A stretch of 64,000 nt of DNA from Vitis vinifera. Lineage: Eukaryota > Streptophyta > Magnoliopsida > Vitales > Vitaceae. The stretch spans positions 34,951,501 to 35,015,500 of the forward strand of contig NC_081822.1 in NCBI RefSeq assembly GCF_030704535.1, in the 5' to 3' direction. The position numbers and the translations under genes were made by a program. The notes under the pieces are model-generated. The model was not told the origin of the DNA. It saw only the letters and a list, made by a program, of their open reading frames with translations, and did not search any database. How positions within the stretch are numbered: position 1 is the first letter of the stretch; each line of letters begins with the position of its first letter. Of the stretch, positions 6,013 through 43,470 are shown piece after piece.

Positions 6013-7270
6013 AAAGTATTTATTGTGATATATAGTTAGATGGTGGGGGGGAAGCAGTGTGTTCCAACAGGGTCAAGTCTTAAGATTGCATGTCCTTACA
6101 GCTTTGCTTTGTATTAAAACCAAGAGATTTCCAGCCTTTTCTTTTGTGTATGAACTCTGAAGGTTTTAAGAAACATGAACTACATTTCGTGTTTGTGTAA
6201 ATTTCCAGATTTAGTTTGCTTCAGTGTCTAATTTTTCTTCTCATTTTTCTTCCTCTTGGTCATGCCATGAGCAATGGATTTTGGGTTTCTTTTTCTGAAA
6301 GATATGTGTACTAATGATGCCATGAGGAAAAAGTGGCCTTTTATGTATGGCTTTGTAATGTTTTGGGAAAAGAATCTTCAATGGGAAACTACAAAAGGGG
6401 AAGAAATGAGTTTGTATGTGGTGAATGCTCTAAAATACTTGTATGGTTCAACCTTATACTTCAAAAACTGCTTTCAGGTAGAGTTGTTAAACTTAGCGTT
6501 GAAATCCACCGCCCCATGTGGGGATGGCGTCTTAACTTGGGAATGGTATATAATTATATTTTACACAAGTCAAATTACAAGGAGTTTTCTGATTCTTTAT
6601 GGTATCAAAAAGCACCTTCCCTTGTATAGAAGTGGGAAGATTAATAAAATTTGGCAACCTGTTGACATTGGAAAGTGTTGGGGCCAACCTGGGAAGTGTT
6701 TTCCCAATAAGTGGCATATGGTTTTGGGTTCAAATCCTTACTTGATGGTGGATGTTGCAAGGCGGTTAGCATTTTAAGGTTTAAGTCTCCATGGAGAGTC
6801 CTTAAGGATTTGGCCATGTAAAGTTGCTCGGTTATTAAAAAAAAAAAAATTGAATTTGTTTTCTACTTTGGCTGAATTTTGTTTTATTTTGTTTATACAT
6901 ATATATTAAGGGCTGAAATAGCAAGTTTAGTTTTGGTATCTTAGAATTCCCCTGGAAGTTGTAACTAATTGATACCTTCACTTGAAAGTGGGTGTTGATA
7001 GGTATGTTGATTTGGAGGCTTGATTATTCTTTTGTTAGTTTAGAAAAATCTTTCTTTAAGGCTCATATATACATCTTGAATGAAAAAAAAATTTAAAAAA
7101 ATGTGGAGAATTTATTTTTATTCTTAATTTATATATGAGAATTATTGGAAAAACAATTACATAAATTACATCACCCAATTAGTTAGATCATCGAACGACA
7201 AAACCAGGAATTCAATTGGAAGAAAATCCCCATCTATGACAATAACTTATTTTAAGAATAAATTTTCAAA
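6013..7270. other. 3' UTR and gene-free spacer
   Basis: This covers the downstream region of the acidic membrane protein gene and AT-rich DNA up to the palindrome boundary. A 167-codon open frame at 6274-6777 has no domain, no codon bias and no splice context, and I do not regard it as a gene. Confidence 0.6.
6640..6852 (+). mobile_element. possible tRNA-derived SINE relic
   Basis: The segment holds a B-box-like GGTTCAAATCC at about 6727 with an A-box-like AAGTGGCATATGG shortly upstream, and it ends in a 13-base A run at 6838-6850. This order (pol III boxes, body, A tail) suits a short SINE. I cannot find a convincing target-site duplication, so the 5' end is a guess. Confidence 0.25.
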
Positions 7271-8786
7271 AAAACTATTTTCCAAAAAAATTCTTGAATG
7301 TTTTTTTAAGGTTAGAAACTACAACCATTTCCAACCAAACAGACCTTAAAAATCTCTAACAGGTAGCAAATTATTTATTTATTATACTCATTTTAAATCT
7401 TTAATTAAAATAGGGGAAATAATAAAACAAAGATTAATAAAGGGTTCAATTTTGGATAAAACTCTCAAAATAATGTTAATAATGAATATTAAAAAAATAA
7501 AATTTATAAAAATAAAGCCTAGTCAAGCAATAAATATAATAGCCAAAAAGTTATTTATATTAAGGTTGTAGTTTATAAATGTGGTTTCTAAAATTGAAGT
7601 CATAGTTTCCAAATTTATATTGAAGCAACAATTTATAGATGTAGTGCAATATCCCCAATGATACATTTTTAAGTGTTCATTTGATGCAAAATGAATAATA
7701 CCTGCATGTTTGAAAGCAAATTAATACAAATGATATCACAATCAATTCTAAATTCTCCCTTATTTATTTGTCTAACTTTACAAGGAATATTCATAATCTC
7801 GAAAATGTTATATTTATATAAGGGCGATTATAACGTCTGGCTTCAAACAAAAGAACATCAAATATACTTAAACGTAGTAAAAAGAAAAAAAAAATCATTT
7901 GATATATAAATTTTATGTTCCATTTTAGAACTAAACTAAAAATAACTTCTATATAAAATATGAAAATTAGTAGTAACTTTTATATAGAAGATGAAAGTTT
8001 TAACACGCTCAAATTAAAAATGTAATAGTTTTATAAGTTGATTAAAAAAAATTAAAGTACTAAAAAATCTTTTATTACCTCAAATTTTAAAAAATTAAAT
8101 TAAATTTTAAAATCAAGACAAAGTCATGCTTTTTAAAATTATTTAACCTTTATATAAATAATATAATTAATTAATTTTTAAAAATATATAAAAATAATTT
8201 ATTATTATTATTTTTTTCTCTCACTCCGTTTCAAGAAAAGAAGGATGTGTTGTCCATTCACAATTATTCACAAGTGAGTTGGGACTCGTCTAAATTCTAT
8301 AAATTCAAATTCCACCTTCATCAAAATCAGTAACTCTGGAAATAATTTGGCAACTTTGTAATCAAGACAAACTTTTACCAGCTGCAGCAAAGCCAATTTC
8401 ATCTCATAATGAAGATAACCCAGAAGTCATGACATAAAATTCTGTCTGAAAATCTGGATGATCAACTGAATCCAGAGCCCCATACTCGTATAAAAGCAGT
8501 TTGCTTTCTGCAAAAGCTTTTATCAGTTCATCTCTGAGTTGTAAAATGAAGTCATTCCAGAAAATGAAGCCATTTTGACAATGGGATTGACATTTCTTCA
8601 TCAAATCTTTCCATTAATGGCTCAGTTCTCGAAGGTAAAATGATTTCAAGAGATACCCTTAACGAGAAACTCAAGGATTATTCATGAAAGTTTTTGAATA
8701 TTTGGACAGGTTTGCACAACAAGGCACAAGGAAACTTCCCTTTGCATGAATTTTAGACAGCTCGGAAGATTTGGTGGGGAAGAGAA
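7271..8786. other. downstream region of the left MOCS2A copy
   Basis: AT-rich DNA without a gene. The part near 8400-8786 is less AT-rich and is probably the 3' UTR of MOCS2A, which is transcribed leftwards. A 66-codon open frame at 8404-8604 (mirrored at 23608-23808) has no recognisable domain. Confidence 0.55.
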
Positions 8787-9107
8787 TTAGCCTCCACTTA
8801 TTGGAGGTATGATGGCCAATTCGTCTCGGTCCTTGACAACAGTGGACTCAGGTGTGTACTCCTCGTTCAATGCCAGGACCATGCATCCACGAATCTCCTC
8901 CAATCTCGGGAATTTGGCAACAAGCTTATTTAGACAGTCATGGGCTGTGCTACCCGATGGCACCTCCATTGGCATATCAGTGAGGCCACCTGTAAGATCC
9001 CGAGCTCTTGCAAAGAACAGAAACTTAATCCCAACAGAGGAACCGTCGCTTCCCTTGTTTGTACTGTCCACCGTCTGACTCTCTTTTTCTCCTCCCTTGA
9101 CTTCCAT
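8787..9107 (-). CDS. molybdopterin synthase small subunit (sulfur carrier), left palindrome copy
   Basis: This 106-residue protein is the cytosolic sulfur carrier of molybdopterin synthase. In the known pathway its C-terminal Gly-Gly is adenylated and thiocarboxylated by the MOCS3/CNX5 enzyme. It then gives sulfur to cyclic pyranopterin monophosphate in a heterotetramer with MOCS2B/CNX6. What is visible: a ~25-residue polar leader, a beta-grasp domain from about residue 27 ([14 protein letters not shown]), the segment [14 protein letters not shown], the core VLALNEEY and the ending IPPISGG. Length and ending are normal for plant CNX7. Coding is in one exon; a GT-AG intron (9119-10267) lies just upstream in the 5' UTR. 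The protein is identical to that of the right-arm copy, and the two genes are divergently transcribed with the transposons between their promoters. Confidence 0.92.
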
Positions 9108-9118
9108 GGCAGAAAATC

Positions 9119-10267
9119 CTGCTCACCAAGTTGAAAGGAAGTTAAAAACCATGATAGGGTTTGAGCTTTCAGAACCACTAGGGAACTATTTTAAGTGCAG
9201 AATTTCCTAATTCTTACAATTAAAACCCCACAAATGACACAAATGCAACAATTTCATCTTTGATTGCCAGATTTAATATCAACAACAACTTGACATATAT
9301 GCAGGGCTTTAACTCCTCTTCACTCTCATTTTGAGAAGGTTCGTTTTGGAAGAAGGGGACCGATTCTGATCCAAGGTCTAGTTGGTCCAGATTCTAAAGG
9401 TGAAATTCTTGCCAGGGCGATGGAGAAACTGGTGAAATTCTCATCCAGACACTAAAATTCCCCAATACCATTATGGATACTAGATGTGAATCTCTAAGCT
9501 TGTTACAATCTCTCTGGAAAGACTGAACCTGGATTCCTATTTAAGAAAAGCATACTTGATAAATTTCTTTTCCTCACCAGCCAAGATCAAAATGTTTCCT
9601 CACATATTTTGGCAATCTATTCAAGGACACAAAAAATTATCCCTAATTAATCCGATTTCCGCGAAACAACAAAACATCAACCTGCAAATCTAGTCAATTG
9701 CTACACAACAAATTTCTCAAACGGCTCTTCAATATTTCACCTATTAGTGTGTTCAATGACAAGAAATGAGCTAAAATGAAAGGTACCCATATCATATATG
9801 TCCGGAAAAACTAGATTGAAAGTCCTAAACAATCCAAATAACAGAGATAATGAATTGATAAGACACACAAAATGAGAGAATTTATGGGTAGAATTCTAAA
9901 CCACTGTCCAGTCAAAAGCTGATAACAGTACAATCATCAATCCAACATAATAGAAAAGTATCATCTGAAAATCAAATCACAGTGTATTCAGTATAATATC
10001 ATTCCATCACTCGATAACCCCCTATTGAGTTTCAGCACCACCGCCATCAAACAGTTGGCGGGCATCACCCGATCACAATTCTCAGTTATTTCTCATATGA
10101 CTACTTCTATGCATCATCAAACACTCAGGAGAACTCCAACCATGACCGAAAGTCAAGAAAATCACAAGCTTTAATCCAAAAAAATAATCAAAACCTAAGG
10201 TTTAATTCAAACGAAATCCAAAAACCCAATTCAAATAACCAAAGAAATGGATTGAAATTCAACCAAC
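9119..10267 (-). other. 5' UTR intron of the left MOCS2A copy
   Basis: Read on the minus strand, the donor GTTGGT follows TGGAAGTTGAAG and the acceptor is CTTGGTGAGCAG, 12 bases before the start codon. The intron is inferred from splice signals alone. The interior shows no other gene. Confidence 0.55.
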
Positions 10268-10620
10268 CTTCAACTTCCAGATGAAAATAGAATTAGAATC
10301 TCTTTTTATCTGCAGAAATTTGGAAGGATTAGGGTTAGTTTAGTTAGGGTTTTCAACCAAAAATATCCAATCAGAGATTCAGAAGAGATGAGGCATGTGA
10401 AAATTGTGATTTAATTTTGGGCGGTCAAATCCCAAGGATATGTGTTTGGATCCCACCAATCAAATCGCCTTATCCCAAAGAAATTTCCATGCTTGAAAAG
10501 GTGACCCTGTGTCTCTCCAAACATACCGAAACCCAATTATTTTCCGCATTGATGCTAAGCCAAATTCTTAGAAGTTAGGACCTGTTTGGCGACAAAAACG
10601 ACACCTATGTTGAAAAGTAT
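10268..10620 (-). promoter_or_regulatory. promoter and leader exon of the left MOCS2A copy
   Basis: On the minus strand the leader region contains AAAACCCTAACTAAA and TAACCCTAATCC at about 10320-10360. These are telo-box elements typical of plant housekeeping promoters. No clear TATA box is seen. The transposon end starts directly upstream, so the promoter available to this gene is at most ~350 bp before transposon sequence begins. Confidence 0.5.
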
Positions 10621-10621
10621 A

Positions 10622-10761
10622 GGCCTGTTTGTTTAGTGTTTTCAAGAACTGTTTTCTGTTCTTGAAAACAAAAAACACCAAAAACTTGTTTGGTTGAAAG
10701 AGTCATTTTTGTTTTTGTTGTTCCCCGTGTTCTCAAAATGGCACTATTTAGAGAACAACAA
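10622..10761 (-). repeat. Harbinger right-end segment (140 bp), outer left copy
   Basis: This segment is the reverse complement of 16035-16174 without a mismatch that I can see and is also mirrored at 21451-21590. It starts GGCCTGTTTGTTTAGTG and ends GAGAACAACAA. It contains a 13 bp stem (10637-10649 with 10658-10670) around an 8-base loop. I read it as the split-off end of the outer, interrupted Harbinger copy. The first base of the terminus (10621) is A instead of the G seen at the other ends. Confidence 0.8.
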
Positions 10762-11311
10762 GGGCCTGTTTGGTTGCTGTTTTTAAAAACTGTTCTGGAA
10801 AACAGTTTTTGAGAACAGTTTTTAAGAACAGTTTTTAGTGTTTTTAGAAAAAAAATTGTGTTTGGGAACTGAATTTTGAAAAACAGTTTTTGTTCTCAAA
10901 AACAAAAAAAACATGTTTGGCTTAGTTAATAAAAAAACATGTTTGAAAGATGTTTTTTTTTCTTTTTCAATTAATAAAATATTTTCTTCAAGTAACTTTA
11001 TATTATAAATTTATAAATATTTTTAAATACACATTTCATTTAAATTTAAAAAATTATTTAATTTTAAATTTTTTATATAAGTTGATAAATTATTAAAAAT
11101 AAAATAAAATATGATGTATGTATTTCACATGGGTCTTTTGTCCATCCTACTTTTACAATTATAAATTAAATTTATAAGCAATATTTAATCATTAGAAATT
11201 AAAACAAACATCACATAACACTAATGAGAACTAGTTAAGTTAACAAATATATATAAATTCTAACAAAACACTAAAGTGTTGACAAATATTAAAAATTAAA
11301 AATAAGACAAG

Positions 11312-12633
11312 TCATGGATTGACATTAATATAATTTGCCCACATCACTTCAGCAATTTGATCTCTACAAGCTGCCATAGCTGCTGCACTCTCATCTGATA
11401 AATCAATTGAATGGTTTCTGCTACTTGTGCTCTCTTCTTCACCTTCGATTGAAAGGTCTTCTACCTCATATTCTCTAAACAATTGATCATTTCAAGTTGA
11501 TAGACGAATCCAATTATGAAGGGTACAACATGCAACAACAATTGATGGTTGCCTACTTGGCTTATAACAAGGCATCATCCTTAATATTGGAAATCGGGTC
11601 TTTAAAACACCAAAACATCTTTCAATAATATTTCGAAGAGATGAATGTCTATAATTAAAAAGTTCTTTATACCTGATAGGTTGATTATGTCTACCCCGAT
11701 ATTCTTGTAAATGATATCGCTCACCTCGATATGGTGGCAAAAATCCAGATATACAAGGATAACCAGAATCAACTACATAATATTTTCCTTCACTTGGCCA
11801 AGGAAAATTGACTTCTGGTCTAGTCAATGCATCTAAAAAGACACGTGCATCGTTTGCTGTTCCTTCCCAACCAGCATAAACAAATGTAAACATCATGTCA
11901 AAATTACATGCACACATAACATTTTGTGTTATAACTGTTTTTCTACCTCTAAAACTGGTTTGTCTATCAGCTGGGACCCATGCACTAATATGAGTGCCAT
12001 CAATTGCACCAATACAGTCCTACAACAACAAACATTTATTATTATTAAGGAAATAAATTAAATAATCGTCATGAAATTCACATTTATAAATATTTTTTTA
12101 TAAACTCTTACCTTAAACCATGGAAAATATTTAGGATTACTAGCAACATATGAAGACACCTCATTGGTCATATTGTTAGGACATATGAGAATTTTTCCAA
12201 GTCGACATAATGCACGTCTAACTTCTTTAAAGTGTCGAGCGACAGTCTCTGTGGAGTGTTGAAAACGGTCTGCTACAACCCTCATTCTCACATTATGTCC
12301 TACGATTAGTAAGAACATAGCCACTGCCTCTTCAACTGTGACAAATCGTGTATCCTGTAAGTTTTCATGTCTCTTAAGATGATCACAAAGGTTCATAAAT
12401 GTTTCTTTATCCATCCGAAATAGTTCATAGCATGTCTAAGGATGACCTTCTATCATATCTCTTACAAATTGTGCACCACTTAACATTGATGTCCTTTGAG
12501 GTGTCTTGCATAAAAATATTTCCTCATACTCATTCATAATGTGAGCAATAAAAATTTCATCTAAATCATCACCCTCTTCAGAAGATGAAGTTGAGTCATA
12601 TAGTTCACCACTGCTTGTGTTATTATCATCCAT
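11312..12633 (-). pseudogene. Harbinger DDE transposase (ORF2), left copy, two nonsense codons
   Basis: This is a HARBI1/DDE_Tnp_4-type transposase in two exons (12633-12112 and 12019-11492, GT-AG intron). The N-terminus is acidic (DSTSSSEEGDDLDE), followed by a helix-turn-helix-like region (VRMRVVADRFQHSTETVARHF). The catalytic triad is visible as D in DCIGAIDGTH, D in YYVVDSGYP and E in NIIERCFGVLK. Exon 1 carries TAG at 12438-12436 where the right-arm copy has CAG (Gln), so this lesion is unique to the left copy. Exon 2 has TGA at 11494-11492 in both copies, after HNWIRLST. Beyond it the frame stays open for another 59 codons to 11312, so the stop is probably a CGA-to-TGA change. The enzyme is probably not functional from this copy. 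Confidence 0.85.
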
Positions 12634-12833
12634 TGGTTACTACATAAAACAAATGAACTCACAATATAAAATAGCACGAAATGAATATTAAAGTAGTTAT
12701 AATATAAGTTTCATAACCATAAATAACATCCATACAATGACAAACTAAAGAGCATGGTAAAAGATTCTAACCAAAAGATAAATAGTACATATTACAATGT
12801 CATCATAATAGTTATGCATCCAAACATTCACAT

Positions 12834-13859
12834 TTAAAGTCTATCAAGCCATGCCATTTTCCTCTCATCAGACATATTCATAAATATCTCTCTCCACTCC
12901 GGCACTGTGAATTTCTCAACAGCTTTTAAATATTTGTCATTATCTAACAGTTCAATGGTTTGTAAGGCTGCCATGCACCTTGTTATGCTAAAATCAGTGG
13001 TACCTCCACTAGTAGCTTCACTACTAGTTCCACTCTTATATCTGTCCACTCTAGCCAATAATGCCTCAGTTCTAGCTCGAGATGTTTCTGTTCTAGCCTT
13101 TGATGCCTCAACCCAAGCTTTCAAAGCATCTCCCATTTGACTTAATCTGGATTCTTTCTTACCTTTACGCTCTAATAGAGAATCAGTTACACGCTTTCCA
13201 GAACGGGTGGTCACTCCTCCTGCCATTTCTGGTTGTGGAGGATCATCAGGGATCTCAGTATCTACATCCACATGCACTCCACCATGTTCCAAATTGTCAT
13301 CCATCTCATCTTCATCATCAGTGTTTGGTGGATCTTGGGTGGAAGAGTAGTGGAGGGCACCGGTTGCTGTTGATGGATTAAAGATCAATCCCAACAAGTT
13401 GTAGTTTGGGCATCCCTTTGAGCGGAATCTTTTTGCATTTGGGTGTGCCTAATAGAAGGAAAAAAAAAATTCACTCTTAGTGTTTACCAAATATTTAAAT
13501 TAAAAAGTAATTGGTTTAAAAGTTATTTTTACCCGAATGTAATTTTGCCAGGTTTCCTCTAGAGCATGCACTGTGTTAGTTTCAGCATCCCAACCAAATC
13601 CAGTATGCTTTAAAAGATCAGAGAACTCACGGTGCATTGCACGTAGTCTATTAAACTTTTGTTTAAGCTGCTTCAAGTTGAAATTTCTTTTCCCTTGACT
13701 ATTGACCTCAAGTAAGATCCTTCTCCATGTGTTGGTACTAAATGTACCACTATCCATGTTACCTTTATTAACTTCATTTACCATGACGTCAATAAAGATT
13801 TTCTCTATATTACCTCTCCATGTTCCTGCATCCTCAACATCTGTTATCTCAGTTGTCAT
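12834..13859 (-). CDS. Harbinger ORF1, Myb/SANT-like DNA-binding protein, left copy
   Basis: Exons are 13859-13533 and 13448-12834, with a short GT-AG intron, giving 313 residues. Residues ~10-105 form a trihelix/Myb-SANT-like domain of the Myb_DNA-bind_3 type, with conserved tryptophans (W14, W46, W75, W88, W104) and the run FNLKQLKQKFNRLR. An acidic linker, a basic segment and a C-terminal helix follow. In PIF/Harbinger elements this protein binds subterminal DNA and helps nuclear import of the transposase. No disabling change is seen. The single homopolymer length difference between the arms lies in its intron. Confidence 0.85.
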
Positions 13860-15060
13860 CTGTACAATCCCATCACAAATAAGAACTCTATGAGGAGACA
13901 GCTTTTAAAACCACCAATAGAACTTAAGGCTATGTTTAAATGAGAATTAAGATTGTTGACGTATAGTGTAGTGTATAAAAATATGAAAGAAAAATAAATA
14001 AAAATAAAAATAGATTTGATATTAATTAGATTTTAAAGACTTTTTTTTTTTAGTTTTTATAAAATTTGAAACAAAAATTGGGGGAAAAAAATGAAAGAAA
14101 AGTAAGTTTGATTAATTTTATATTTGATTAATTTTAAAATTAAAATATTTTTTTATATTTTTTTAAAATAAATCAAACATGATAAAATCATTTTTATTAT
14201 TTTTTATTGATTTAATATTTAATTTTATTAAAAATTATAGTATATTCTATTAAGATGAGATAAAAAAAATTTAAAAAGAATTAATTTAATATTTATAACT
14301 AATCTAAATAAAATAAATAAGACATCAAAATAATTTAATATTTTAAAAAGTTTGATTTCAATAATTTTGATTTCAATAATGTTAAAAAATTAATTTTTTA
14401 ATGTTTGATTTACTACAAAAATATACAATTAAAATTAATTAAAATTTATATATTTTAAATTATATAATCATATGAAAAAATAAAAATAAGTTTGAAGTAG
14501 TATATAGAAAATAATTTAATAATTTTGATTTTATTTTTAAATTAGTAATTTATAGAAAATAATTAGTAATTTATTATTAACTTAAAATTATTTTAAATTA
14601 ATTAAGATGTCATTTTGTATCTTTTTACTCTAGGTAAAAATTTAAGTCAATTTTTTATTTTTAAATAATAATATTAATATTTCAAACAATTTCTTTAAAT
14701 ATGAAATAATATTCTATATAGAATAAAATATGACTCCTATGATAAATAATGTTTTTTATTTTTATATTAAATGTTTTTTTAAGTCATAAGTATTTTTAAT
14801 AAAATTACTGAAATAGGCATGAAAAAAAAACTTTTATTAAGATTAAAAAGGAGCTTTGAAGTTATTAATTTACTTGATTAGGGTTAATTTGTTTAATGAA
14901 AATTAATTAATAAATAATTTTGTAATTATGTGAAAGTAATTTAAAGAATATTTAAAGTTAGCATGATTGAATAAATGGTTAACAAAAATTGTAGAAAAGT
15001 AGCAGAGAATCCAAAACTTTAGGGAATAAAAAAAAAAAATCAAAAGCAACCTATTATATT
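13860..15060. other. AT-rich non-coding interior of the Harbinger element
   Basis: Very AT-rich DNA with long A and T runs and no coding potential, upstream of ORF1. It is mirrored at 17153-18353. One arm difference (14694) lies here. Confidence 0.6.
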
Positions 15061-15236
15061 TAACCCCCAACTCTTAAGGTCTGTTTGTTTAGTGCAGCAT
15101 CCATACAGGCCCTTAGCTAGAAAGGGAGCAAACTCGGTTTCTGGAGGGGATTCCTTTAGCTTGGGCAGCAAGTTGGAGGGGGGAGAGAGAGCGTATTGAG
15201 AGGAAGGTGATTTTTTTACAGCAACCTATTATATTT
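15046..15236. repeat. 16 bp direct repeat bracketing a ~160 bp insert inside the Harbinger body
   Basis: GCAACCTATTATATTT occurs at 15046-15061 and again at 15221-15236. Between them is a block (15062-15220) less AT-rich than its surroundings, which contains the 36 bp TTA-flanked miniature described separately. The repeat could be a target-site duplication of an insertion or the trace of repair synthesis. It is mirrored in the right arm. Confidence 0.5.
15077..15112. mobile_element. 36 bp TTA-flanked miniature with Harbinger-type ends
   Basis: The 36 bases begin AGGTCTGTTTGTTTAGTGC and end GCATCCATACAGGCCC. They are flanked by TTA at 15074-15076 and 15113-15115. Both ends resemble the GGGCCTGTTTG terminus pointing inwards, and TTA is the usual PIF/Harbinger target duplication. 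It looks like two element ends with almost nothing between them. Mirrored at 17101-17136. Confidence 0.45.
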
Positions 15237-16034
15237 TCCTGCACTTCTCTTTACATTGCTTTTTCTATTTCTGCGGATGAACTCAAGGGTGTGTTTGGAT
15301 TTGAAGAGGAAAGGTGAGTCTGGATGAGAGAGAGGAAGAGCAGATCTACAGAGAGAAAAGGTTCTTGGTGATTCAACACCTCATCCTCTTCTGATTCTCT
15401 TTATTTTTTCCATTTTCCTTGAGGTATTTCACCCGTCAAGACTCAAGCTTGGATTTTCCCGTTTGATTTCCATGTCTTTAAGTAAGGTTTTTGTTTTTTT
15501 TTAACAGAACAACTCAACAAAAATCAAAACGGGAAAAAATCAGGAATTTTTGGGCTTATTTTCATTCTCGTTTCCTAGTTTTCTCAGCATCCAAACAGGA
15601 AAATATAAACGAAAAAAAAAAACTAACAGGTGATCAAAAAAATCTCAGATCTCATTCTATTTTCATTCTCGTTTCCTAGTTTTCTCAGCATCCAAATAGG
15701 AATATATAAACGGGAAAAAAAGAAACTAACAGCAGGTGATAAAAAAAAAATTCGAATAACATAACTGATATCTCTTTATCAGATCTAACATTTCCCTCAA
15801 CAAATATTGCCAAAAAAAACCTATTTTATTAGATCTATAAAAAATAACTTCAACATCTGTGGAAATTACCTTTGTTTCTTGCTGGAGATGTCGCGACTGT
15901 GCTGGAGAAGAGGTGCCGCGACTGTGCTGGAGAGAGATGAGAAAGGGAAGAAAAAGAAAAACACGGAGAACAGATGTGTTTTTTGTTCTTTAATTTTGTT
16001 CTATAAACAGTACAAAAACGGGGAAAACAACATT
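15237..16034. other. non-coding right third of the Harbinger element with a ~100 bp tandem repeat
   Basis: The short open frames in this block lack any domain. Two direct repeats starting at 15558 and 15659 share ATTTTCATTCTCGTTTCC, TCTCAGCATCCAAA and ACTAACAGGTGAT-like ends. A second small duplication near 15885-15925 repeats CGCGACTGTGCTGGAGA. Three of the six arm differences lie within 15848-15944. Mirrored at 16179-16976. Confidence 0.6.
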
Positions 16035-16037
16035 TTG

Positions 16038-16175
16038 TTGTTCTCTAAATAGTGCCATTTTGAGAACACGGGGAACAACAAAAACAAAAATGACTCTTTC
16101 AACCAAACAAGTTTTTGGTGTTTTTTGTTTTCAAGAACAGAAAACAGTTCTTGAAAACACTAAACAAACAGGCCC
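16038..16175 (+). repeat. asymmetric spacer at the palindrome centre = transposon right end
   Basis: These 138 bases are the only part of the central 17.7 kb without a mirror partner next to the axis. They are identical to 21452-21589 and to the reverse complement of 10624-10761. The last base is the exact terminus of the inner Harbinger copy, so the right arm starts directly at a transposon end. Confidence 0.88.
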
Positions 16176-18353
16176 CAAAATGTTGTTTTCCCCGTTTTTG
16201 TACTGTTTATAGAACAAAATTAAAGAACAAAAAACACATCTGTTCTCCGTGTTTTTCTTTTTCTTCCCGTTCTCATCTCTCTCCAGCACAGTCGCGGCGC
16301 CTCTTCTCCAGCACAGTCGCGACATCTCCAGCAAGAAACAAAGGTAATTTCCACAGATGTTGAAATTATTTTTTATAGATCTAATAAAATAGGTTTTTTT
16401 TGGCAATATTTGTTGAGGGAAATGTTAGATCTGATAAAGAGATATCAGTTATGTTATTCGAATTTTTTTTTTATCACCTGCTGTTAGTTTCTTTTTTTCC
16501 CGTTTATATATTCCTATTTGGATGCTGAGAAAACTAGGAAACGAGAATGAAAATAGAATGAGATCTGAGATTTTTTTGATCACCTGTTAGTTTTTTTTTT
16601 TCGTTTATATTTTCCTGTTTGGATGCTGAGAAAACTAGGAAACGAGAATGAAAATAAGCCCAAAAATTCCTGATTTTTTCCCGTTTTGATTTTTGTTGAG
16701 TTGTTCTGTTAAAAAAAAACAAAAACCTTACTTAAAGACATGGAAATCAAACGGGAAAATCCAAGCTTGAGTCTTGACGGGTGAAATACCTCAAGGAAAA
16801 TGGAAAAAATAAAGAGAATCAGAAGAGGATGAGGTGTTGAATCACCAAGAACCTTTTCTCTCTGTAGATCTGCTCTTCCTCTCTCTCATCCAGACTCACC
16901 TTTCCTCTTCAAATCCAAACACACCCTTGAGTTCATCCGCAGAAATAGAAAAAGCAATGTAAAGAGAAGTGCAGGAAAATATAATAGGTTGCTGTAAAAA
17001 AATCACCTTCCTCTCAATACGCTCTCTCTCCCCCCTCCAACTTGCTGCCCAAGCTAAAGGAATCCCCTCCAGAAACCGAGTTTGCTCCCTTTCTAGCTAA
17101 GGGCCTGTATGGATGCTGCACTAAACAAACAGACCTTAAGAGTTGGGGGTTAAATATAATAGGTTGCTTTTGATTTTTTTTTTTTATTCCCTAAAGTTTT
17201 GGATTCTCTGCTACTTTTCTACAATTTTTGTTAACCATTTATTCAATCATGCTAACTTTAAATATTCTTTAAATTACTTTCACATAATTACAAAATTATT
17301 TATTAATTAATTTTCATTAAACAAATTAACCCTAATCAAGTAAATTAATAACTTCAAAGCTCCTTTTTAATCTTAATAAAAGTTTTTTTTTCATGCCTAT
17401 TTCAGTAATTTTATTAAAAATACTTATGACTTAAAAAAACATTTAATATAAAAATAAAAAACATTATTTATCATAGGAGTCATATTTTATTCTATATAGA
17501 ATATTATTTCATATTTAATGAAATTGTTTGAAATATTAATATTATTATTTAAAAATAAAAAATTGACTTAAATTTTTACCTAGAGTAAAAAGATACAAAA
17601 TGACATCTTAATTAATTTAAAATAATTTTAAGTTAATAATAAATTACTAATTATTTTCTATAAATTACTAATTTAAAAATAAAATCAAAATTATTAAATT
17701 ATTTTCTATATACTACTTCAAACTTATTTTTATTTTTTCATATGATTATATAATTTAAAATATATAAATTTTAATTAATTTTAATTGTATATTTTTGTAG
17801 TAAATCAAACATTAAAAAATTAATTTTTTAACATTATTGAAATCAAAATTATTGAAATCAAACTTTTTAAAATATTAAATTATTTTGATGTCTTATTTAT
17901 TTTATTTAGATTAGTTATAAATATTAAATTAATTCTTTTTAAATTTTTTTTATCTCATCTTAATAGAATATACTATAATTTTTAATAAAATTAAATATTA
18001 AATCAATAAAAAATAATAAAAATGATTTTATCATGTTTGATTTATTTTAAAAAAATATAAAAAAATATTTTAATTTTAAAATTAATCAAATATAAAATTA
18101 ATCAAACTTACTTTTCTTTCATTTTTTTCCCCCAATTTTTGTTTCAAATTTTATAAAAACTAAAAAAAAAAAGTCTTTAAAATCTAATTAATATCAAATC
18201 TATTTTTATTTTTATTTATTTTTCTTTCATATTTTTATACACTACACTATACGTCAACAATCTTAATTCTCATTTAAACATAGCCTTAAGTTCTATTGGT
18301 GGTTTTAAAAGCTGTCTCCTCATAGAGTTCTTATTTGTGATGGGATTGTACAG

Positions 18354-19378
18354 ATGACAACTGAGATAACAGATGTTGAGGATGCAGGAACATGGAGAGG
18401 TAATATAGAGAAAATCTTTATTGACGTCATGGTAAATGAAGTTAATAAAGGTAACATGGATAGTGGTACATTTAGTACCAACACATGGAGAAGGATCTTA
18501 CTTGAGGTCAATAGTCAAGGGAAAAGAAATTTCAACTTGAAGCAGCTTAAACAAAAGTTTAATAGACTACGTGCAATGCACCGTGAGTTCTCTGATCTTT
18601 TAAAGCATACTGGATTTGGTTGGGATGCTGAAACTAACACAGTGCATGCTCTAGAGGAAACCTGGCAAAATTACATTCGGGTAAAAATAACTTTTAAACC
18701 AATTACTTTTTAATTTAAATATTTGGTAAACACTAAGAGTGAATTTTTTTTTCCTTCTATTAGGCACACCCAAATGCAAAAAGATTCCGCTCAAAGGGAT
18801 GCCCAAACTACAACTTGTTGGGATTGATCTTTAATCCATCAACAGCAACCGGTGCCCTCCACTACTCTTCCACCCAAGATCCACCAAACACTGATGATGA
18901 AGATGAGATGGATGACAATTTGGAACATGGTGGAGTGCATGTGGATGTAGATACTGAGATCCCTGATGATCCTCCACAACCAGAAATGGCAGGAGGAGTG
19001 ACCACCCGTTCTGGAAAGCGTGTAACTGATTCTCTATTAGAGCGTAAAGGTAAGAAAGAATCCAGATTAAGTCAAATGGGAGATGCTTTGAAAGCTTGGG
19101 TTGAGGCATCAAAGGCTAGAACAGAAACATCTCGAGCTAGAACTGAGGCATTATTGGCTAGAGTGGACAGATATAAGAGTGGAACTAGTAGTGAAGCTAC
19201 TAGTGGAGGTACCACTGATTTTAGCATAACAAGGTGCATGGCAGCCTTACAAACCATTGAACTGTTAGATAATGACAAATATTTAAAAGCTGTTGAGAAA
19301 TTCACAGTGCCGGAGTGGAGAGAGATATTTATGAATATGTCTGATGAGAGGAAAATGGCATGGCTTGATAGACTTTAA
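18354..19378 (+). CDS. Harbinger ORF1, Myb/SANT-like DNA-binding protein, right copy
   Basis: Exons are 18354-18680 and 18764-19378 (GT-AG), giving 313 residues, with the same protein sequence as the left copy as far as I can see. The Myb/SANT-like region is followed by an acidic stretch (NTDDEDEMDDNLEHG) and a Lys/Arg-rich segment around GKRVTDSLLERKGKK that could act as a nuclear signal. The exon 1 ATG follows a pyrimidine-rich ~50-base leader. ORF1 precedes ORF2 by 200 bp on the same strand, the usual arrangement for this family. Confidence 0.86.
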
Positions 19379-19578
19379 ATGTGAATGTTTGGATGCATAA
19401 CTATTATGATGACATTGTAATATGTACTATTTATCTTTTGGTTAGAATCTTTTACCATGCTCTTTAGTTTGTCATTGTATGGATGTTATTTATGGTTATG
19501 AAACTTATATTATAACTACTTTAATATTCATTTCGTGCTATTTTATATTGTGAGTTCATTTGTTTTATGTAGTAACCA

Positions 19579-20900
19579 ATGGATGATAATAACACAAGCA
19601 GTGGTGAACTATATGACTCAACTTCATCTTCTGAAGAGGGTGATGATTTAGATGAAATTTTTATTGCTCACATTATGAATGAGTATGAGGAAATATTTTT
19701 ATGCAAGACATCTCAAAGGACATCAATGTTAAGTGGTGCACAATTTGTAAGAGATATGATAGAAGGTCATCCTCAGACATGCTATGAACTATTTCGGATG
19801 GATAAAGAAACATTTATGAACCTTTGTGATCATCTTAAGAGACATGAAAACTTACAGGATACACGATTTGTCACAGTTGAAGAGGCAGTGGCTATGTTCT
19901 TACTAATCGTAGGACATAATGTGAGAATGAGGGTTGTAGCAGACCGTTTTCAACACTCCACAGAGACTGTCGCTCGACACTTTAAAGAAGTTAGACGTGC
20001 ATTATGTCGACTTGGAAAAATTCTCATATGTCCTAACAATATGACCAATGAGGTGTCTTCATATGTTGCTAGTAATCCTAAATATTTTCCATGGTTTAAG
20101 GTAAGAGTTTATAAAAAAATATTTATAAATGTGAATTTCATGACGATTATTTAATTTATTTCCTTAATAATAATAAATGTTTGTTGTTGTAGGACTGTAT
20201 TGGTGCAATTGATGGCACTCATATTAGTGCATGGGTCCCAGCTGATAGACAAACCAGTTTTAGAGGTAGAAAAACAGTTATAACACAAAATGTTATGTGT
20301 GCATGTAATTTTGACATGATGTTTACATTTGTTTATGCTGGTTGGGAAGGAACAGCAAACGATGCACGTGTCTTTTTAGATGCATTGACTAGACCAGAAG
20401 TCAATTTTCCTTGGCCAAGTGAAGGAAAATATTATGTAGTTGATTCTGGTTATCCTTGTATATCTGGATTTTTGCCACCATATCGAGGTGAGCGATATCA
20501 TTTACAAGAATATCGGGGTAGACATAATCAACCTATCAGGTATAAAGAACTTTTTAATTATAGACATTCATCTCTTCGAAATATTATTGAAAGATGTTTT
20601 GGTGTTTTAAAGACCCGATTTCCAATATTAAGGATGATGCCTTGTTATAAGCCAAGTAGGCAACCATCAATTGTTGTTGCATGTTGTACCCTTCATAATT
20701 GGATTCGTCTATCAACTTGAAATGATCAATTGTTTAGAGAATATGAGGTAGAAGACCTTTCAATCGAAGGTGAAGAAGAGAGCACAAGTAGCAGAAACCA
20801 TTCAATTGATTTATCAGATGAGAGTGCAGCAGCTATGGCAGCTTGTAGAGATCAAATTGCTGAAGTGATGTGGGCAAATTATATTAATGTCAATCCATGA
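19579..20900 (+). pseudogene. Harbinger DDE transposase (ORF2), right copy, one in-frame TGA near the end
   Basis: Exons are 19579-20100 and 20193-20720, intron GT-AG. The open part encodes 349 residues with all three catalytic acidic residues (D of DCIGAIDGTH, D of VVDSGYP, E of IIERCFGVLK). In contrast to the left copy, exon 1 is open throughout. TGA at 20718-20720 ends the protein after HNWIRLST, and the same frame continues for 59 codons to a second stop at 20898-20900 with a typical acidic tail (REYEVEDLSIEGEEE). The loss removes the tail but no catalytic residue, so residual activity is possible but unproven. Confidence 0.84.
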
Positions 20901-21450
20901 CTTGTCTTATTTTTAATTTTTAATATTTGTCAACACTTTAGTGTTTTGTTAGAATTTATATATATTTGTTAACTTAACTAGTTCTCATTAGTGTTATGTG
21001 ATGTTTGTTTTAATTTCTAATGATTAAATATTGCTTATAAATTTAATTTATAATTGTAAAAGTAGGATGGACAAAAGACCCATGTGAAATACATACATCA
21101 TATTTTATTTTATTTTTAATAATTTATCAACTTATATAAAAAATTTAAAATTAAATAATTTTTTAAATTTAAATGAAATGTGTATTTAAAAATATTTATA
21201 AATTTATAATATAAAGTTACTTGAAGAAAATATTTTATTAATTGAAAAAGAAAAAAAAACATCTTTCAAACATGTTTTTTTATTAACTAAGCCAAACATG
21301 TTTTTTTTGTTTTTGAGAACAAAAACTGTTTTTCAAAATTCAGTTCCCAAACACAATTTTTTTTCTAAAAACACTAAAAACTGTTCTTAAAAACTGTTCT
21401 CAAAAACTGTTTTCCAGAACAGTTTTTAAAAACAGCAACCAAACAGGCCC

Positions 21451-21590
21451 TTGTTGTTCTCTAAATAGTGCCATTTTGAGAACACGGGGAACAACAAAAA
21501 CAAAAATGACTCTTTCAACCAAACAAGTTTTTGGTGTTTTTTGTTTTCAAGAACAGAAAACAGTTCTTGAAAACACTAAACAAACAGGCC
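21451..21590 (+). repeat. Harbinger right-end segment (140 bp), outer right copy
   Basis: Mirror image of 10622-10761 and identical to the centre spacer. It joins the left-end terminus of the outer element (21450) to the host MOCS2A promoter DNA that starts TATACTTTTCAACATAGG. In the copying model it is part of the duplicated flank and not a native end. Confidence 0.8.
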
Positions 21591-21944
21591 TATACTTTTC
21601 AACATAGGTGTCGTTTTTGTCGCCAAACAGGTCCTAACTTCTAAGAATTTGGCTTAGCATCAATGCGGAAAATAATTGGGTTTCGGTATGTTTGGAGAGA
21701 CACAGGGTCACCTTTTCAAGCATGGAAATTTCTTTGGGATAAGGCGATTTGATTGGTGGGATCCAAACACATATCCTTGGGATTTGACCGCCCAAAATTA
21801 AATCACAATTTTCACATGCCTCATCTCTTCTGAATCTCTGATTGGATATTTTTGGTTGAAAACCCTAACTAAACTAACCCTAATCCTTCCAAATTTCTGC
21901 AGATAAAAAGAGATTCTAATTCTATTTTCATCTGGAAGTTGAAG
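21591..21944 (+). promoter_or_regulatory. promoter and leader exon of the right MOCS2A copy
   Basis: Mirror of 10268-10620 with no difference found. Telo-box-type motifs AAAACCCTAACT and TAACCCTAATCC lie at about 21858-21883, shortly before the inferred leader exon, which ends at 21944 (donor GTTGGT). The intron then runs to 23093. Confidence 0.5.
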
Positions 21945-23093
21945 GTTGGTTGAATTTCAATCCATTTCTTTGGTTATTTGAATTGGGTTTTTGGATTTCG
22001 TTTGAATTAAACCTTAGGTTTTGATTATTTTTTTGGATTAAAGCTTGTGATTTTCTTGACTTTCGGTCATGGTTGGAGTTCTCCTGAGTGTTTGATGATG
22101 CATAGAAGTAGTCATATGAGAAATAACTGAGAATTGTGATCGGGTGATGCCCGCCAACTGTTTGATGGCGGTGGTGCTGAAACTCAATAGGGGGTTATCG
22201 AGTGATGGAATGATATTATACTGAATACACTGTGATTTGATTTTCAGATGATACTTTTCTATTATGTTGGATTGATGATTGTACTGTTATCAGCTTTTGA
22301 CTGGACAGTGGTTTAGAATTCTACCCATAAATTCTCTCATTTTGTGTGTCTTATCAATTCATTATCTCTGTTATTTGGATTGTTTAGGACTTTCAATCTA
22401 GTTTTTCCGGACATATATGATATGGGTACCTTTCATTTTAGCTCATTTCTTGTCATTGAACACACTAATAGGTGAAATATTGAAGAGCCGTTTGAGAAAT
22501 TTGTTGTGTAGCAATTGACTAGATTTGCAGGTTGATGTTTTGTTGTTTCGCGGAAATCGGATTAATTAGGGATAATTTTTTGTGTCCTTGAATAGATTGC
22601 CAAAATATGTGAGGAAACATTTTGATCTTGGCTGGTGAGGAAAAGAAATTTATCAAGTATGCTTTTCTTAAATAGGAATCCAGGTTCAGTCTTTCCAGAG
22701 AGATTGTAACAAGCTTAGAGATTCACATCTAGTATCCATAATGGTATTGGGGAATTTTAGTGTCTGGATGAGAATTTCACCAGTTTCTCCATCGCCCTGG
22801 CAAGAATTTCACCTTTAGAATCTGGACCAACTAGACCTTGGATCAGAATCGGTCCCCTTCTTCCAAAACGAACCTTCTCAAAATGAGAGTGAAGAGGAGT
22901 TAAAGCCCTGCATATATGTCAAGTTGTTGTTGATATTAAATCTGGCAATCAAAGATGAAATTGTTGCATTTGTGTCATTTGTGGGGTTTTAATTGTAAGA
23001 ATTAGGAAATTCTGCACTTAAAATAGTTCCCTAGTGGTTCTGAAAGCTCAAACCCTATCATGGTTTTTAACTTCCTTTCAACTTGGTGAGCAG
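21945..23093 (+). other. 5' UTR intron of the right MOCS2A copy
   Basis: Donor AAG|GTTGGT and acceptor GGTGAGCAG|GA are inferred from sequence. The interior is T-rich with no gene. Confidence 0.55.
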
Positions 23094-23104
23094 GATTTTC
23101 TGCC

Positions 23105-23425
23105 ATGGAAGTCAAGGGAGGAGAAAAAGAGAGTCAGACGGTGGACAGTACAAACAAGGGAAGCGACGGTTCCTCTGTTGGGATTAAGTTTCTGTTCTTT
23201 GCAAGAGCTCGGGATCTTACAGGTGGCCTCACTGATATGCCAATGGAGGTGCCATCGGGTAGCACAGCCCATGACTGTCTAAATAAGCTTGTTGCCAAAT
23301 TCCCGAGATTGGAGGAGATTCGTGGATGCATGGTCCTGGCATTGAACGAGGAGTACACACCTGAGTCCACTGTTGTCAAGGACCGAGACGAATTGGCCAT
23401 CATACCTCCAATAAGTGGAGGCTAA
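23105..23425 (+). CDS. molybdopterin synthase small subunit (sulfur carrier), right palindrome copy
   Basis: Same 106-residue MOCS2A/CNX7 protein as the left copy, including the essential C-terminal GG that is thiocarboxylated. The start ATG is in CTGCCATGGAAG and follows the inferred 5' UTR splice acceptor by 11 bases. A second in-frame Met at residue 45 would delete the first beta strand and is unlikely as a start. The gene has an intact promoter, leader and 3' region, so it is a full-length duplicate and not a retrocopy. Which of the two is ancestral cannot be read from the coding sequence. If the right junction at 24941/24942 is the recombination scar, the left copy is the native one. Confidence 0.92.
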
Positions 23426-24941
23426 TTCTCTTCCCCACCAAATCTTCCGAGCTGTCTAAAATTCATGCAAAGGGAAGTTTCCTTGTGCCTTGTTGTGCAA
23501 ACCTGTCCAAATATTCAAAAACTTTCATGAATAATCCTTGAGTTTCTCGTTAAGGGTATCTCTTGAAATCATTTTACCTTCGAGAACTGAGCCATTAATG
23601 GAAAGATTTGATGAAGAAATGTCAATCCCATTGTCAAAATGGCTTCATTTTCTGGAATGACTTCATTTTACAACTCAGAGATGAACTGATAAAAGCTTTT
23701 GCAGAAAGCAAACTGCTTTTATACGAGTATGGGGCTCTGGATTCAGTTGATCATCCAGATTTTCAGACAGAATTTTATGTCATGACTTCTGGGTTATCTT
23801 CATTATGAGATGAAATTGGCTTTGCTGCAGCTGGTAAAAGTTTGTCTTGATTACAAAGTTGCCAAATTATTTCCAGAGTTACTGATTTTGATGAAGGTGG
23901 AATTTGAATTTATAGAATTTAGACGAGTCCCAACTCACTTGTGAATAATTGTGAATGGACAACACATCCTTCTTTTCTTGAAACGGAGTGAGAGAAAAAA
24001 ATAATAATAATAAATTATTTTTATATATTTTTAAAAATTAATTAATTATATTATTTATATAAAGGTTAAATAATTTTAAAAAGCATGACTTTGTCTTGAT
24101 TTTAAAATTTAATTTAATTTTTTAAAATTTGAGGTAATAAAAGATTTTTTAGTACTTTAATTTTTTTTAATCAACTTATAAAACTATTACATTTTTAATT
24201 TGAGCGTGTTAAAACTTTCATCTTCTATATAAAAGTTACTACTAATTTTCATATTTTATATAGAAGTTATTTTTAGTTTAGTTCTAAAATGGAACATAAA
24301 ATTTATATATCAAATGATTTTTTTTTTCTTTTTACTACGTTTAAGTATATTTGATGTTCTTTTGTTTGAAGCCAGACGTTATAATCGCCCTTATATAAAT
24401 ATAACATTTTCGAGATTATGAATATTCCTTGTAAAGTTAGACAAATAAATAAGGGAGAATTTAGAATTGATTGTGATATCATTTGTATTAATTTGCTTTC
24501 AAACATGCAGGTATTATTCATTTTGCATCAAATGAACACTTAAAAATGTATCATTGGGGATATTGCACTACATCTATAAATTGTTGCTTCAATATAAATT
24601 TGGAAACTATGACTTCAATTTTAGAAACCACATTTATAAACTACAACCTTAATATAAATAACTTTTTGGCTATTATATTTATTGCTTGACTAGGCTTTAT
24701 TTTTATAAATTTTATTTTTTTAATATTCATTATTAACATTATTTTGAGAGTTTTATCCAAAATTGAACCCTTTATTAATCTTTGTTTTATTATTTCCCCT
24801 ATTTTAATTAAAGATTTAAAATGAGTATAATAAATAAATAATTTGCTACCTGTTAGAGATTTTTAAGGTCTGTTTGGTTGGAAATGGTTGTAGTTTCTAA
24901 CCTTAAAAAAACATTCAAGAATTTTTTTGGAAAATAGTTTT
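23426..24941. other. downstream region of the right MOCS2A copy
   Basis: Mirror of 7271-8786. The first ~400 bases are probably 3' UTR; the rest is AT-rich and holds no gene that I can support. Confidence 0.55.
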
Positions 24942-25457
24942 GCATGATAATACTCAAATTCAACCCGATGTTTAATTGCTTTCACTAAATATTTTTAATA
25001 CTTAAGTTAAGATTGGGATAAGTTTTTACACCTTTACCCAATTTAGGTTGAGTTCATTTCAACCACTTCAAGTCACACTTGAACTTTGTTGGACTCTGTG
25101 GAAGATTAACGATGAAAAAATAGAAAAACAAGAAAGAAGAACACTGGAACAGGAGAAGGTGATATTCACTATGTTAAAATTAAGGTTATATAAGAGGATA
25201 TTTATATTAATCTTTAGGAATGAAATTCTAAAAATACCCTGAATCGATTTAATATTTTTATAATGTTTATTATTTTGTCAACTTAAATATACCTTGAATT
25301 TGATTTCATTATAATGTTTATTATTTTACATAATAATAGTTGTTTTTTTTTTCTAATATCAAATTATAATCATATTGTATAGTTTTTTTAAAAAGAAGAT
25401 ATGAGTTTTTTTTTTAAATTTTTATTATTATTTTGAAATTTTGTCTTATTTATTATT

Positions 25458-25458
<1 letters not shown>

Positions 25459-25512
<54 letters not shown>
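25459..25512. repeat. AT dinucleotide microsatellite
   Basis: About 26 uninterrupted AT units. The paralogous site at about 45970-45990 has only a few. Confidence 0.9.
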
Positions 25513-25513
<1 letters not shown>

Positions 25514-25544
25514 TTTTTAAAAACCACTGTGGATGACTTTGAGT

Positions 25545-26036
25545 CATGCAACCCATGTCAATTAAATCAAGTCTAACATGATCAACCCAAGTTAACCCGA
25601 TTGAGCTAAAATTAACTTGATCAACATGAATTCAACCCAAATTTAGAAAAATGAAGTTAGCTTAGGATTAGATTGAATACTTCAAGTTAAAAGTTGGGTT
25701 GGGTTCAAGTTAGCCATCAACCCAACCAAGTTGTAATCCTACTAAAAACCATATATGATTTAATAATAGGTGTAGATCTCAAAATTTGTTCCAATTTTAT
25801 TTTTAACCCAAGTTTAACATGATCAACCCAAGTTTAACCCGATCAAGTCGAATTTAACTTGATCAACATGAATTCAACCCAAATTTAGAAAAATGAAGTT
25901 AACTTAGGATTAGATTGAGTACCTTAGGTTAAAAGTTGGATTGTGTTCGAGTTAGCCATCAACCTAATCAAGTTGTAATCCTACTAAAAACCATATATGA
26001 TTTAATAATAGGTGTAAACCCCAAAATTTGTCATAA
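25545..26036. repeat. ~240 bp tandem duplication
   Basis: Two units end in ATCCTACTAAAAACCATATA plus TGATTTAATAATAGGTGTA (about 25736 and 25977). Each contains GATCAACATGAATTCAACCC and GAAAAATGAAGTTA. The LRR1-upstream paralogue has a single unit. Confidence 0.8.
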
Positions 26037-26167
26037 TTTTATTTTTACGTTGATTTTGAGCCTAATTTTATTTTTAATTTTTAAATCTCGATTACATCTT
26101 ATATTTTTTATCCACTCACCATCTAATTATTAGTTTTCATTATTTTATATATTATTTTATTTTATTG

Positions 26168-41829: not shown

Positions 41830-43470
41830 CTTATTTGAGAACTGTTTCCTTTCTATTCTCAATAGGAAAAATAAATGAATTAATTAATCAATTAAATTTA
41901 AAAATCATGTTAAGAAAAAGAGTTATTTAATATTTAATTTCATTATAAAAAATATCAAATATAATTAAAATTAACAAGGAACTTATATATTCTAAAATTA
42001 TTTAATAAGTGAAATGAATTTGAAATAGAATATAAAAATATTTTATTAATTTTAAATTTTAAAATTTATTTTTTATTTTTTTATTTTATTTCTTTTATAT
42101 TTTTCCTCAAACTTTTTGTAATCAAACAAAAAACCACTTAATATTTGAAAGTTAAATTTTAAAAGTGCCTTCATAGTGTTAGTTGTAATACATTATTTAT
42201 ATATAAAAAAAATGATTTTACTAAGAATTTTAAAGAAATTATCAAACACTTAGTTCTGTTTTGTTGTTGTTTTTGAAAACTGTTATGGAAAACAGTTTCT
42301 AATAATAGTTTTTAAGAACACATTTTTTGTGTTTTCAGCAATAAAATTTGTGTTTGGGAACTGAATTCTAAAAAATAGTTTTTGTTATCAAAAATATATA
42401 AAAAAAAAAAGCATATTTTGTTGAGTTGATAAAAAAGTTTTATAGAATAAGTAAAACAAAAAACATTTTTGAAAGTTTTTTTTAATTAATAAAGTGTTTT
42501 CTTCCATTAACTTGATATTATAAATATATAAATAATTTTCATATACACAATTCATTTAAATTTTTTAAAAAATATTTCATTTAAAATTTTTTACATTAGT
42601 TATAATTTTTTTGAATAAATAATGGCTTTGTCACCATATGCAAGTATATTAATTTCAATAATTTAAGAAAGAAGAAAGGGTTTATGAGTGAGGATGTGGT
42701 AGTTCGGTGGAGTTCACCTTTGTGAAAACACAAAAAATAGCTAAAAAAACACAAAAAGAAGAAAAAGAAAATACGAAAAACAATCTATTCTTTTAGGAGT
42801 GAAAAAATAATGAAAACCTCTCTTTATTATTCTCAAAAAAATGGTTTTTGAGAACATAAAAAACATAAGAAAAAAAAAAACAAAAACACACCAATTTCCC
42901 CAAACAAGTTTTTTTATGTTTTTTGTTTTCAAGAACAGAAAACGGTTCTTAAAAATAGGATCCAAACATCCCCTTAATTTCTATCATGAAACACTATTTT
43001 TAAGCTCTTCCAAAATTACTCTTAAATGGGTTCTATGAAGATTTTAAAAAATATTATCAAATCGGCCTTTAGGTTTTATTTATTTATTTATTTATTATTA
43101 TTATTATTATTATTGATTTTTGGGTAACAATTTTAATATTTTCAATAAATTTATTAACCGCATGTCATTTTCTACATTCATCGTAGGTATTTTATACTCT
43201 TTAATTAGAATCCTCAGTCTCAATTTTTTTAATATAGCATATTATTTATTTATTTATTTATTGTTTGCCTATTTGTCTTACGTGGGAGGTATTTGTGGGT
43301 CATAATGGGTTACATGACAAATCAATTTTTGTCATTTTCAGTATTAAAAAAAGGAAAGTTATCGTCTTTACAGTATCCATGCAAAATGAATTATTTATTT
43401 AAAGGATTGAAGTTACTAGTTAATGATCAAATCTAATATTAATCATAAATTTTTGTCTTTAAATTATTTT
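41830..43470. repeat. downstream region of LRR copy 1, paralogous to 46300-47170
   Basis: AT-rich and without a gene. It aligns block by block with the region downstream of the second LRR gene: TTATTTGAGAAC.GTTTCCTTT, CATGTTAAGAAAAAGAGTTA, CATTCATC.TAGGTATT, TATTTATTTATTTATT and GGGAGG.ATTTGTGGGTCATA. This shows that the tandem duplication includes 3' flanks. It contains a 721 bp transposon insertion that the other copy lacks. Confidence 0.8.
42253..42973 (+). mobile_element. non-autonomous PIF/Harbinger element (721 bp) with TTA target duplication
   Basis: Flanked by TTA at 42250-42252 and 42974-42976. The paralogous region downstream of LRR copy 2 is empty at 46593-46597 (ACCTAATTTCTAT), which gives the insertion directly. 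The left end (TTGTTGTTTTTGAAAACTGT, GTGTTTGGGAACTGAATT) resembles the left end of the palindrome's Harbinger at 10762. The right end (TTTTCAAGAACAGAAAACGG) resembles that element's right end. It has no coding capacity. The terminal bases have decayed (GTTCTGTTTTG and CAAACATCCCC). Confidence 0.8.

Follow-up and report, generated by a model that had tools for sequence, protein, structure and literature searches.

In maize, the element known as double Ds (state I Dissociation) consists of one Ds inserted in inverse orientation within another copy, an arrangement that yields inverted repeats and mixed element ends. A structure of similar build occurs in grapevine, in a 64,000-nucleotide stretch of Vitis vinifera (RefSeq assembly GCF_030704535.1, NC_081822.1, contig 18 of the genome as searched here, positions 34951501-35015500; hereafter the window). 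There, a palindrome of 17.7 kb is centred on a PIF/Harbinger transposon lying within an inverted sister copy of itself, and each arm also carries the host gene MOCS2A. Two steps probably made this palindrome: inverted self-insertion of the transposon, followed by inverted copying of the adjoining flank.

Several described systems share parts of this architecture. Nested Ds elements gain chromosome-breaking properties, and it is suggested that they are selected against because of the breakage; in the same study, no chromosome-breaking double Ds was reported as detected in B73 (PMC3260210). Mu killer, also from maize, carries part of MuDR as an inverted duplication. Each half contains about 1.3 kb of mudrA, and the centre is described as not sequenceable, its origin being left unsettled. 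It silences its own family through an RNA mechanism that is described as debated (PMC3440606). In grapevine, the Pifvine families of PIF elements measure 5-7.2 kb, contain two reading frames, make 3-bp TTA/TAA duplications and are described as recently amplified (PMC2528002); the word ‘nested’ is absent from the main text of that paper. In human rearrangements of the Factor 8 type, recombination between long inverted repeats makes one junction and joining with low or no homology makes the other, which leaves an inverted duplication and a deletion (PMC10766186). Literature searches on palindromes in Vitis or Harbinger elements, inverted duplications in plants and self-inserted Harbinger elements showed, among the titles listed, none on a structure like the one described here.

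The sequence identifies the inner 10.7 kb of the palindrome as an inverted self-insertion, with a guest element, G, inside a host element, H (Table 1). When G and one of the two CAA triplets beside it are taken away, the remaining flanks give base for base the uninterrupted site found inside G itself. The insertion point in H lies 138-140 bp from its right end. Two hallmarks of a double-Ds-like arrangement are therefore present: one copy sits inside another of its family, as seen from the duplication and the exact reconstitution of H, and guest and host have inverse orientations. At the terminus of the small severed part of H, the first G of GGG reads A. The abutting right and left ends at 10761/10762 occur in both arms and in none of the other 39 left-end matches among the best 40 of 1152 genomic candidates.

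Self-insertion also accounts for the spacer, which is unpaired because only the part of G past the insertion point has no mirror partner. Inverted self-insertion alone therefore gives arms of 5.28 kb around a spacer of 138 bp. Comparison of the window with itself shows that the spacer stretch is a third copy of the severed end, 16035-16174 being identical over 140 of 140 bp to 10622-10761 and 21451-21590. A separate 138-bp miniature inverted-repeat transposable element in the centre was considered and rejected, as these 138 bp are the right end of full-length copies. A single fold-back as the source of the centre was likewise rejected on the exact element termini, the target duplication and the uneven spread of differences between the arms. 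An earlier reading of the letters alone (the sequence-only reading) had named an assembly or fold-back-read artefact as the alternative to a real palindrome. For the centre this is contradicted, because a transposon terminus marks the end of the spacer, G is bordered by a 3-bp target duplication, and the two copies hold separate derived mutations; for the outer arms an artefact keeps some standing and is weighed below.

Table 1. Features of the palindrome and its surroundings, in window coordinates.
Feature	Position	Strand	Remarks
Palindrome left arm	7271..16037	+	8767 bp; BLAST and global alignment
Palindrome spacer	16038..16175	+	138-bp right end of G, the element part past the insertion point in H
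Palindrome right arm	16176..24941	-	8766 bp; BLAST and global alignment
Guest element G, complete, 5,414 bp	10762..16175	+	Ends GGGCCTGTTTGGTT... and ...AAACAAACAGGCCC; termini as in 11 other genomic copies
Host element H, part 1, 140-bp right end severed by G insertion	10622..10761	-	100% identical to G right end
Host element H, part 2, left end with body, opposite in orientation to G	16176..21450	-	
Target-site duplication CAA, left of G	10759..10761	.	
Target-site duplication CAA, right of G	16176..16178	.	
Transposase reading frames of G	11492..12435	-	Private stop upstream at 12438; stop at 11494 common with H
Transposase reading frames of H	19576..20720	+	Without the 12438 stop; with the shared stop
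ORF1 (Myb/SANT) region of H	18309..19378	+	Mirrored in G at 12834-13904
Original host flank with MOCS2A, 3,351 bp	7271..10621	+	
Inverted copy of host flank and H right-end piece, 3,491 bp	21451..24941	-	100% identical to 7271-10761
MOCS2A coding sequence, left copy, 106 amino acids	8787..9107	-	Sulfur carrier of molybdopterin synthase; Pfam ThiS E 5.7e-16
MOCS2A coding sequence, right copy	23105..23425	+	Identical to left copy
Junction outside nest and putative copying	24939..24942	.	End of copied flank joined to upstream region of presumed missing LRR gene; TT shared
Upstream region of presumed missing LRR gene (‘unit 0’)	24942..26047	-	Pieces homologous to 45604-46252 upstream of intact LRR gene, 79-91% by piece
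Short non-autonomous relative, 721 bp	42253..42973	+	Same two kinds of ends; TTA duplications

The boundaries of G are those of its family. Genome searches covered 495,616,077 bases on 21 contigs, and each scored its best 40 candidates, of 458 for the right end, 1152 for the left end and 353 for the MOCS2A stretch. Apart from the window itself, 34 of 39 right-end matches stop at 16173-16179 and 34 of 39 left-end matches start at 10759-10763, two of the latter 39 stemming from a single copy on contig 4. Fourteen copies were fetched; three had no clean left end there (L016, L018, L019) and were left out of the end count and the alignment, while L020, short and more diverged, was included in the count and left out of the alignment. 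The 11 copies readable at both ends all have termini of the G type, in some cases with one or two base changes, and the terminal inverted repeat GGGCCTGTTTG found at both ends of G recurs in other copies unaltered or with 1-2 bases changed. Identical 3-bp flanks border eight of the 11 (AAA, TAA, CTA, TAA, TTA, TAA, TTA, TAA); six of these are TAA or TTA, which fits the 3-bp duplication of PIF/Harbinger elements.

The gene content agrees with this assignment and with the PIF/Harbinger body that the sequence-only reading had placed in each arm. The right copy encodes a DDE_Tnp_4 transposase domain (PF13359, E 1e-25) and, in open reading frame 1 (ORF1), a Myb/SANT domain (PF12776, E 9e-22, at 18309-18713). 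The transposase matches the Vitis vinifera protein P0241, itself a carrier of PF13359, at 99% over 46% of the query. In size, gene content and duplication the element resembles the Pifvine families, with Pifvine-1 to -4 taken as a group. Two of the fetched copies, L011 and L012, match the element at full length, and the others lack inner parts.

Other observations concern the same family. At 15079-15122, two facing terminus-like motifs stand between TTA repeats, within a 777-bp stretch (14539-15315) that is present in L011 and L012 and missing from the other 12 of the 14 fetched copies; this stretch is perhaps the remnant of an inserted element. The short relative within the window has an empty counterpart site in the tandem paralogue near 46594. 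On contig 6 (17216500-17226400), positions 4395-6914 of the fetched stretch L039 hold two short non-autonomous relatives directly head to tail, 3 bp apart.

G and H are each other's nearest relatives in the alignment. They differ at six of 5412 aligned sites (0.11%), against 22-25 of about 5400 (0.41-0.46%) between either of them and the two nearest full-length copies, which differ mutually by 0.39%. Three changes in the inner zone, at 12872, 13787 and 15104, are common to G and H and missing in every other aligned copy that covers the site, nine of ten in each case. When polarised against the other copies, four private changes fall in G and two in H, and one of those in G (12438) is a stop in the transposase frame. 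Another stop, at 11494, is common to both and absent from the ten other aligned copies; its site falls in the stretch possibly copied during the second event. An element inserting into its own sister copy would most simply give rise to such a pair.

The palindrome as a whole extends beyond the nest. The coordinates, arm lengths, seven differences and 138-bp spacer given by the sequence-only reading hold base by base. BLAST of the window against itself pairs 7271-16037 with 24941-16176 over 8767 columns at 99.92% identity, with 6 mismatches and 1 gap, and global alignment of the arms of 8767 and 8766 bp gives seven differences, six substitutions and one indel. These lie, in left-arm positions, at 12438, 12501, 13460 (A10/A9), 14694, 15848, 15914 and 15944. 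All seven thus fall within the inner 41% of the arm, a zone of 3,600 bp, and the outer 5,167 bp, MOCS2A included, contain none; an even spread would produce this with p ~0.002. Neither this clustering nor the third copy at the spacer was noted in the sequence-only reading. Each arm does carry a complete MOCS2A, a 106-amino-acid reading frame with the ThiS domain that matches Vitis cluster P0121 (named from Vitis rotundifolia) at 99%. The arm includes approximately 1.5 kb of host sequence in front of the ATG, where a promoter may be presumed, in line with the claim that the gene is accompanied by one.

The identity of the outer zone suggests that the flank was copied, in inverted orientation, by a later second event. 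Genome searches covered two pieces of its host part: a query of 7100-9300 has two long matches among the best 40 of 353 candidates, both in this window, and host positions 10560-10621, searched within a query of 10560-11000, have no match outside the two arms among the best 40 of 1152. The element part of the outer zone (10762-12437) shows no difference between G and H, yet it is not a cold spot, because it differs from L011 at 10 of 1676 sites and from L012 at six of 1663. The difference-free stretch 19775-21450 may have been copied from G during the second event. The very recent rearrangement that the sequence-only reading had offered as an origin is therefore supported in its recency and amended in its number, as two events seem to be involved. 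The outermost 74 bp of the arm (7271-7344, mirrored at 24868-24941) look as if another short transposon ended there (GGTCTGTTTGGTTGG... next to TTA), which would place the outer limit of the palindrome within or next to a second element. Insertion of the whole 17.7 kb as a unit was also considered and rejected: no duplication is seen at 7271/24941, and the left flank of the palindrome contains no sequence of the leucine-rich repeat (LRR) unit apart from a single 32-bp match to an AT simple repeat.

On its right side the palindrome meets the apparent upstream region of an LRR gene. To the right of 24941/24942 the sequence matches, at 90% identity, that from 45601 onward; judged by the paralogue, whose LRR start codon is at 45457, the break lies about 147 bp upstream of the place of that codon. 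This junction, the only one left over once the nest and the putative copying are accounted for, shares only about 2 bp. Because the matching LRR coding part is missing to the left of 24942, a deletion is inferred. The LRR genes of the window match the Vitis vinifera protein P0001 at 95% over 91% of the query. Tandem LRR genes that are 86% alike occupy 43988-48803 on the minus strand; one of them (47322-48803) is interrupted by an in-frame stop at 47790, and both are fused in a Vitis vinifera protein prediction of 785 amino acids.

In the most probable history, a 5.4-kb PIF/Harbinger element first inserted into its sister copy, facing the other way and duplicating 3 bp of target, as the sequence shows. 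The DNA to the right of the nest would later have broken, and its repair would have used the inverted copy as template. The damaged body of H would have paired with G, and synthesis would have run on through the left end of G, the severed end of H and the adjoining 3.35 kb of flank that holds MOCS2A, to halt at 7271. The new end would finally have been joined, by end joining, to DNA upstream of a tandem LRR gene now without its coding part, leaving an inverted duplication beside a deletion. It is plausible that the break was made by cleavage by the family's own transposase, as at maize double Ds. At an assumed rate of ~5e-9 changes per site and year, the first step would date very roughly to 0.15 million years (six changes in 3.6 kb) and the second to less than about 0.06 million (none in 5.2 kb), ages too rough to count as a result. 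The outcome resembles that of the human Factor 8 type, in which the inverted repeats pre-exist; here, self-insertion of a transposon supplied them, on the kilobase scale.

Several points weigh against this history. The duplication beside G is CAA, less usual than TTA or TAA, and the target duplication of H itself is invisible because its second flank has been lost and an A stands in place of its terminal G. Looser forms of inverted neighbours of this family exist elsewhere, as on contig 8, where a diverged inverted right end (78%) stands 138 bp ahead of a complete copy (95%, TTA on both sides), measured to the left end of that copy. In that case no inverted body of at least 100 bp was found on the far side, and although one left-end match there (78%) runs across the boundary corresponding to 10761/10762, no element end lies at that boundary. 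This complete copy (L042/L043, contig 8, about 8596162-8601286), 138 bp behind the diverged end, may have inserted at an earlier time into an inverted relative or next to one. The second step is reconstructed from the sequence, and one paralogue is the ground for placing the presumed loss of the LRR gene within it. Identical outer arms would equally be expected from gene conversion, or from an assembler that walked back through the inverted repeat.

The last point corresponds to an alternative in which only the nested insertion is real, and the outer arms are an assembly error that duplicated 3.5 kb of flank via the G/H inverted repeat. Such an error would fit the identity of the outer arms, which is what an assembler turning back would yield: 5,167 bp agree at 100% while the inner part differs. 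The scant overlap at the right junction and the read length needed to cross the palindrome whole, presumably about that of the palindrome, point the same way. However, assemblers are not expected to produce base-exact joins without overlap, and the window contains no N. The seven differences should also allow long reads to be placed from either flank. The likely source is the gap-free assembly of PN40024, a 99.8% homozygous plant, made with hifiasm from HiFi reads at about 42x and described as having one gap remaining after the first assembly (PMC10199708). On balance we regard such an error as improbable.

There is also a small chance that the second step was carried out by transposase instead of repair synthesis, through alternative transposition between G and H ends on sister chromatids. 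Sister chromatid transposition of maize Ac/Ds generates flanking inverted duplications and deletions, the same kind of outcome (PMC3744419), and the chromosome-breaking capacity of nested Ds (PMC3260210) would suit such a course. Against it, 24941/24942 joins host DNA to host DNA, with no element end meeting a new target, although the first break may still have been made by transposase. A classical fold-back at about 16037-16175, by sister-chromatid fusion or hairpin priming, would make the whole palindrome at once with the spacer as filler from the arm, and would suit long arms and a short spacer, inverted duplications of fold-back origin being documented in yeast and discussed for humans (PMC10622511, PMC10766186), but it is very improbable, since the filler would have to end by chance at a transposon terminus and leave a 3-bp target duplication on both sides, and the differences should be spread evenly rather than confined to the inner 41%.

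With self-insertion followed by inverted copying as the preferred history, the locus can be set beside the maize systems. It shares with double Ds an element inverted within a copy of the same family, the inverted repeats and the mixed ends. It differs in being a PIF/Harbinger element with a 3-bp duplication, not a hAT element with 11-bp terminal repeats and an 8-bp duplication; moreover, both elements are close to full length, and a host gene appears to have been drawn into the mirror by the second event. The nest is thus built like a double Ds but is not one. Chromosome breakage by the nest is compatible with the adjoining inverted duplication and the inferred deletion. With Mu killer the locus has in common a transposase gene in mirror orientation within an inverted duplication of a DNA transposon (PMC3440606). 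In the grapevine arms, however, MOCS2A, ORF1 and the transposase all point outward from the centre, so that a role like that of Mu killer would need transcription into the mirror from outside, and silencing here may be considered only a possibility.

A broader interpretation, which we offer tentatively and consider doubtful, is that this natural double-Ds-like PIF composite in the grapevine reference acted as a rearrangement engine, whose breakage caught MOCS2A and truncated a neighbouring gene, and whose inverted repeat could silence the family on read-through from outside, in the way suggested for Mu killer. If true, the nest would be both offspring and brake of its family. Palindromes that bear genes are often ascribed to fold-back or assembly error, and here the sequence points to a simple transposon route. 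The fresh inverted repeat left by a backward jump would then drive the copying of adjacent host DNA. A PIF example with its outcome alongside would also make the idea of selection against nests, taken from maize, testable in another superfamily.

The remainder of the window holds features of other kinds. No RNA genes were found at Rfam gathering thresholds, nor any tRNA in a scan run in its bacterial setting. A Copia-type retrotransposon with 254-bp terminal repeats (98.4%) spans 27225-41689 and is seemingly interrupted by another element with 1.2-kb repeats at 29990-31175 and 38319-39543 (95.9%). Further to the right, at 56253-57505, lies a four-copy tandem array of a 310-bp unit with 92% matches.

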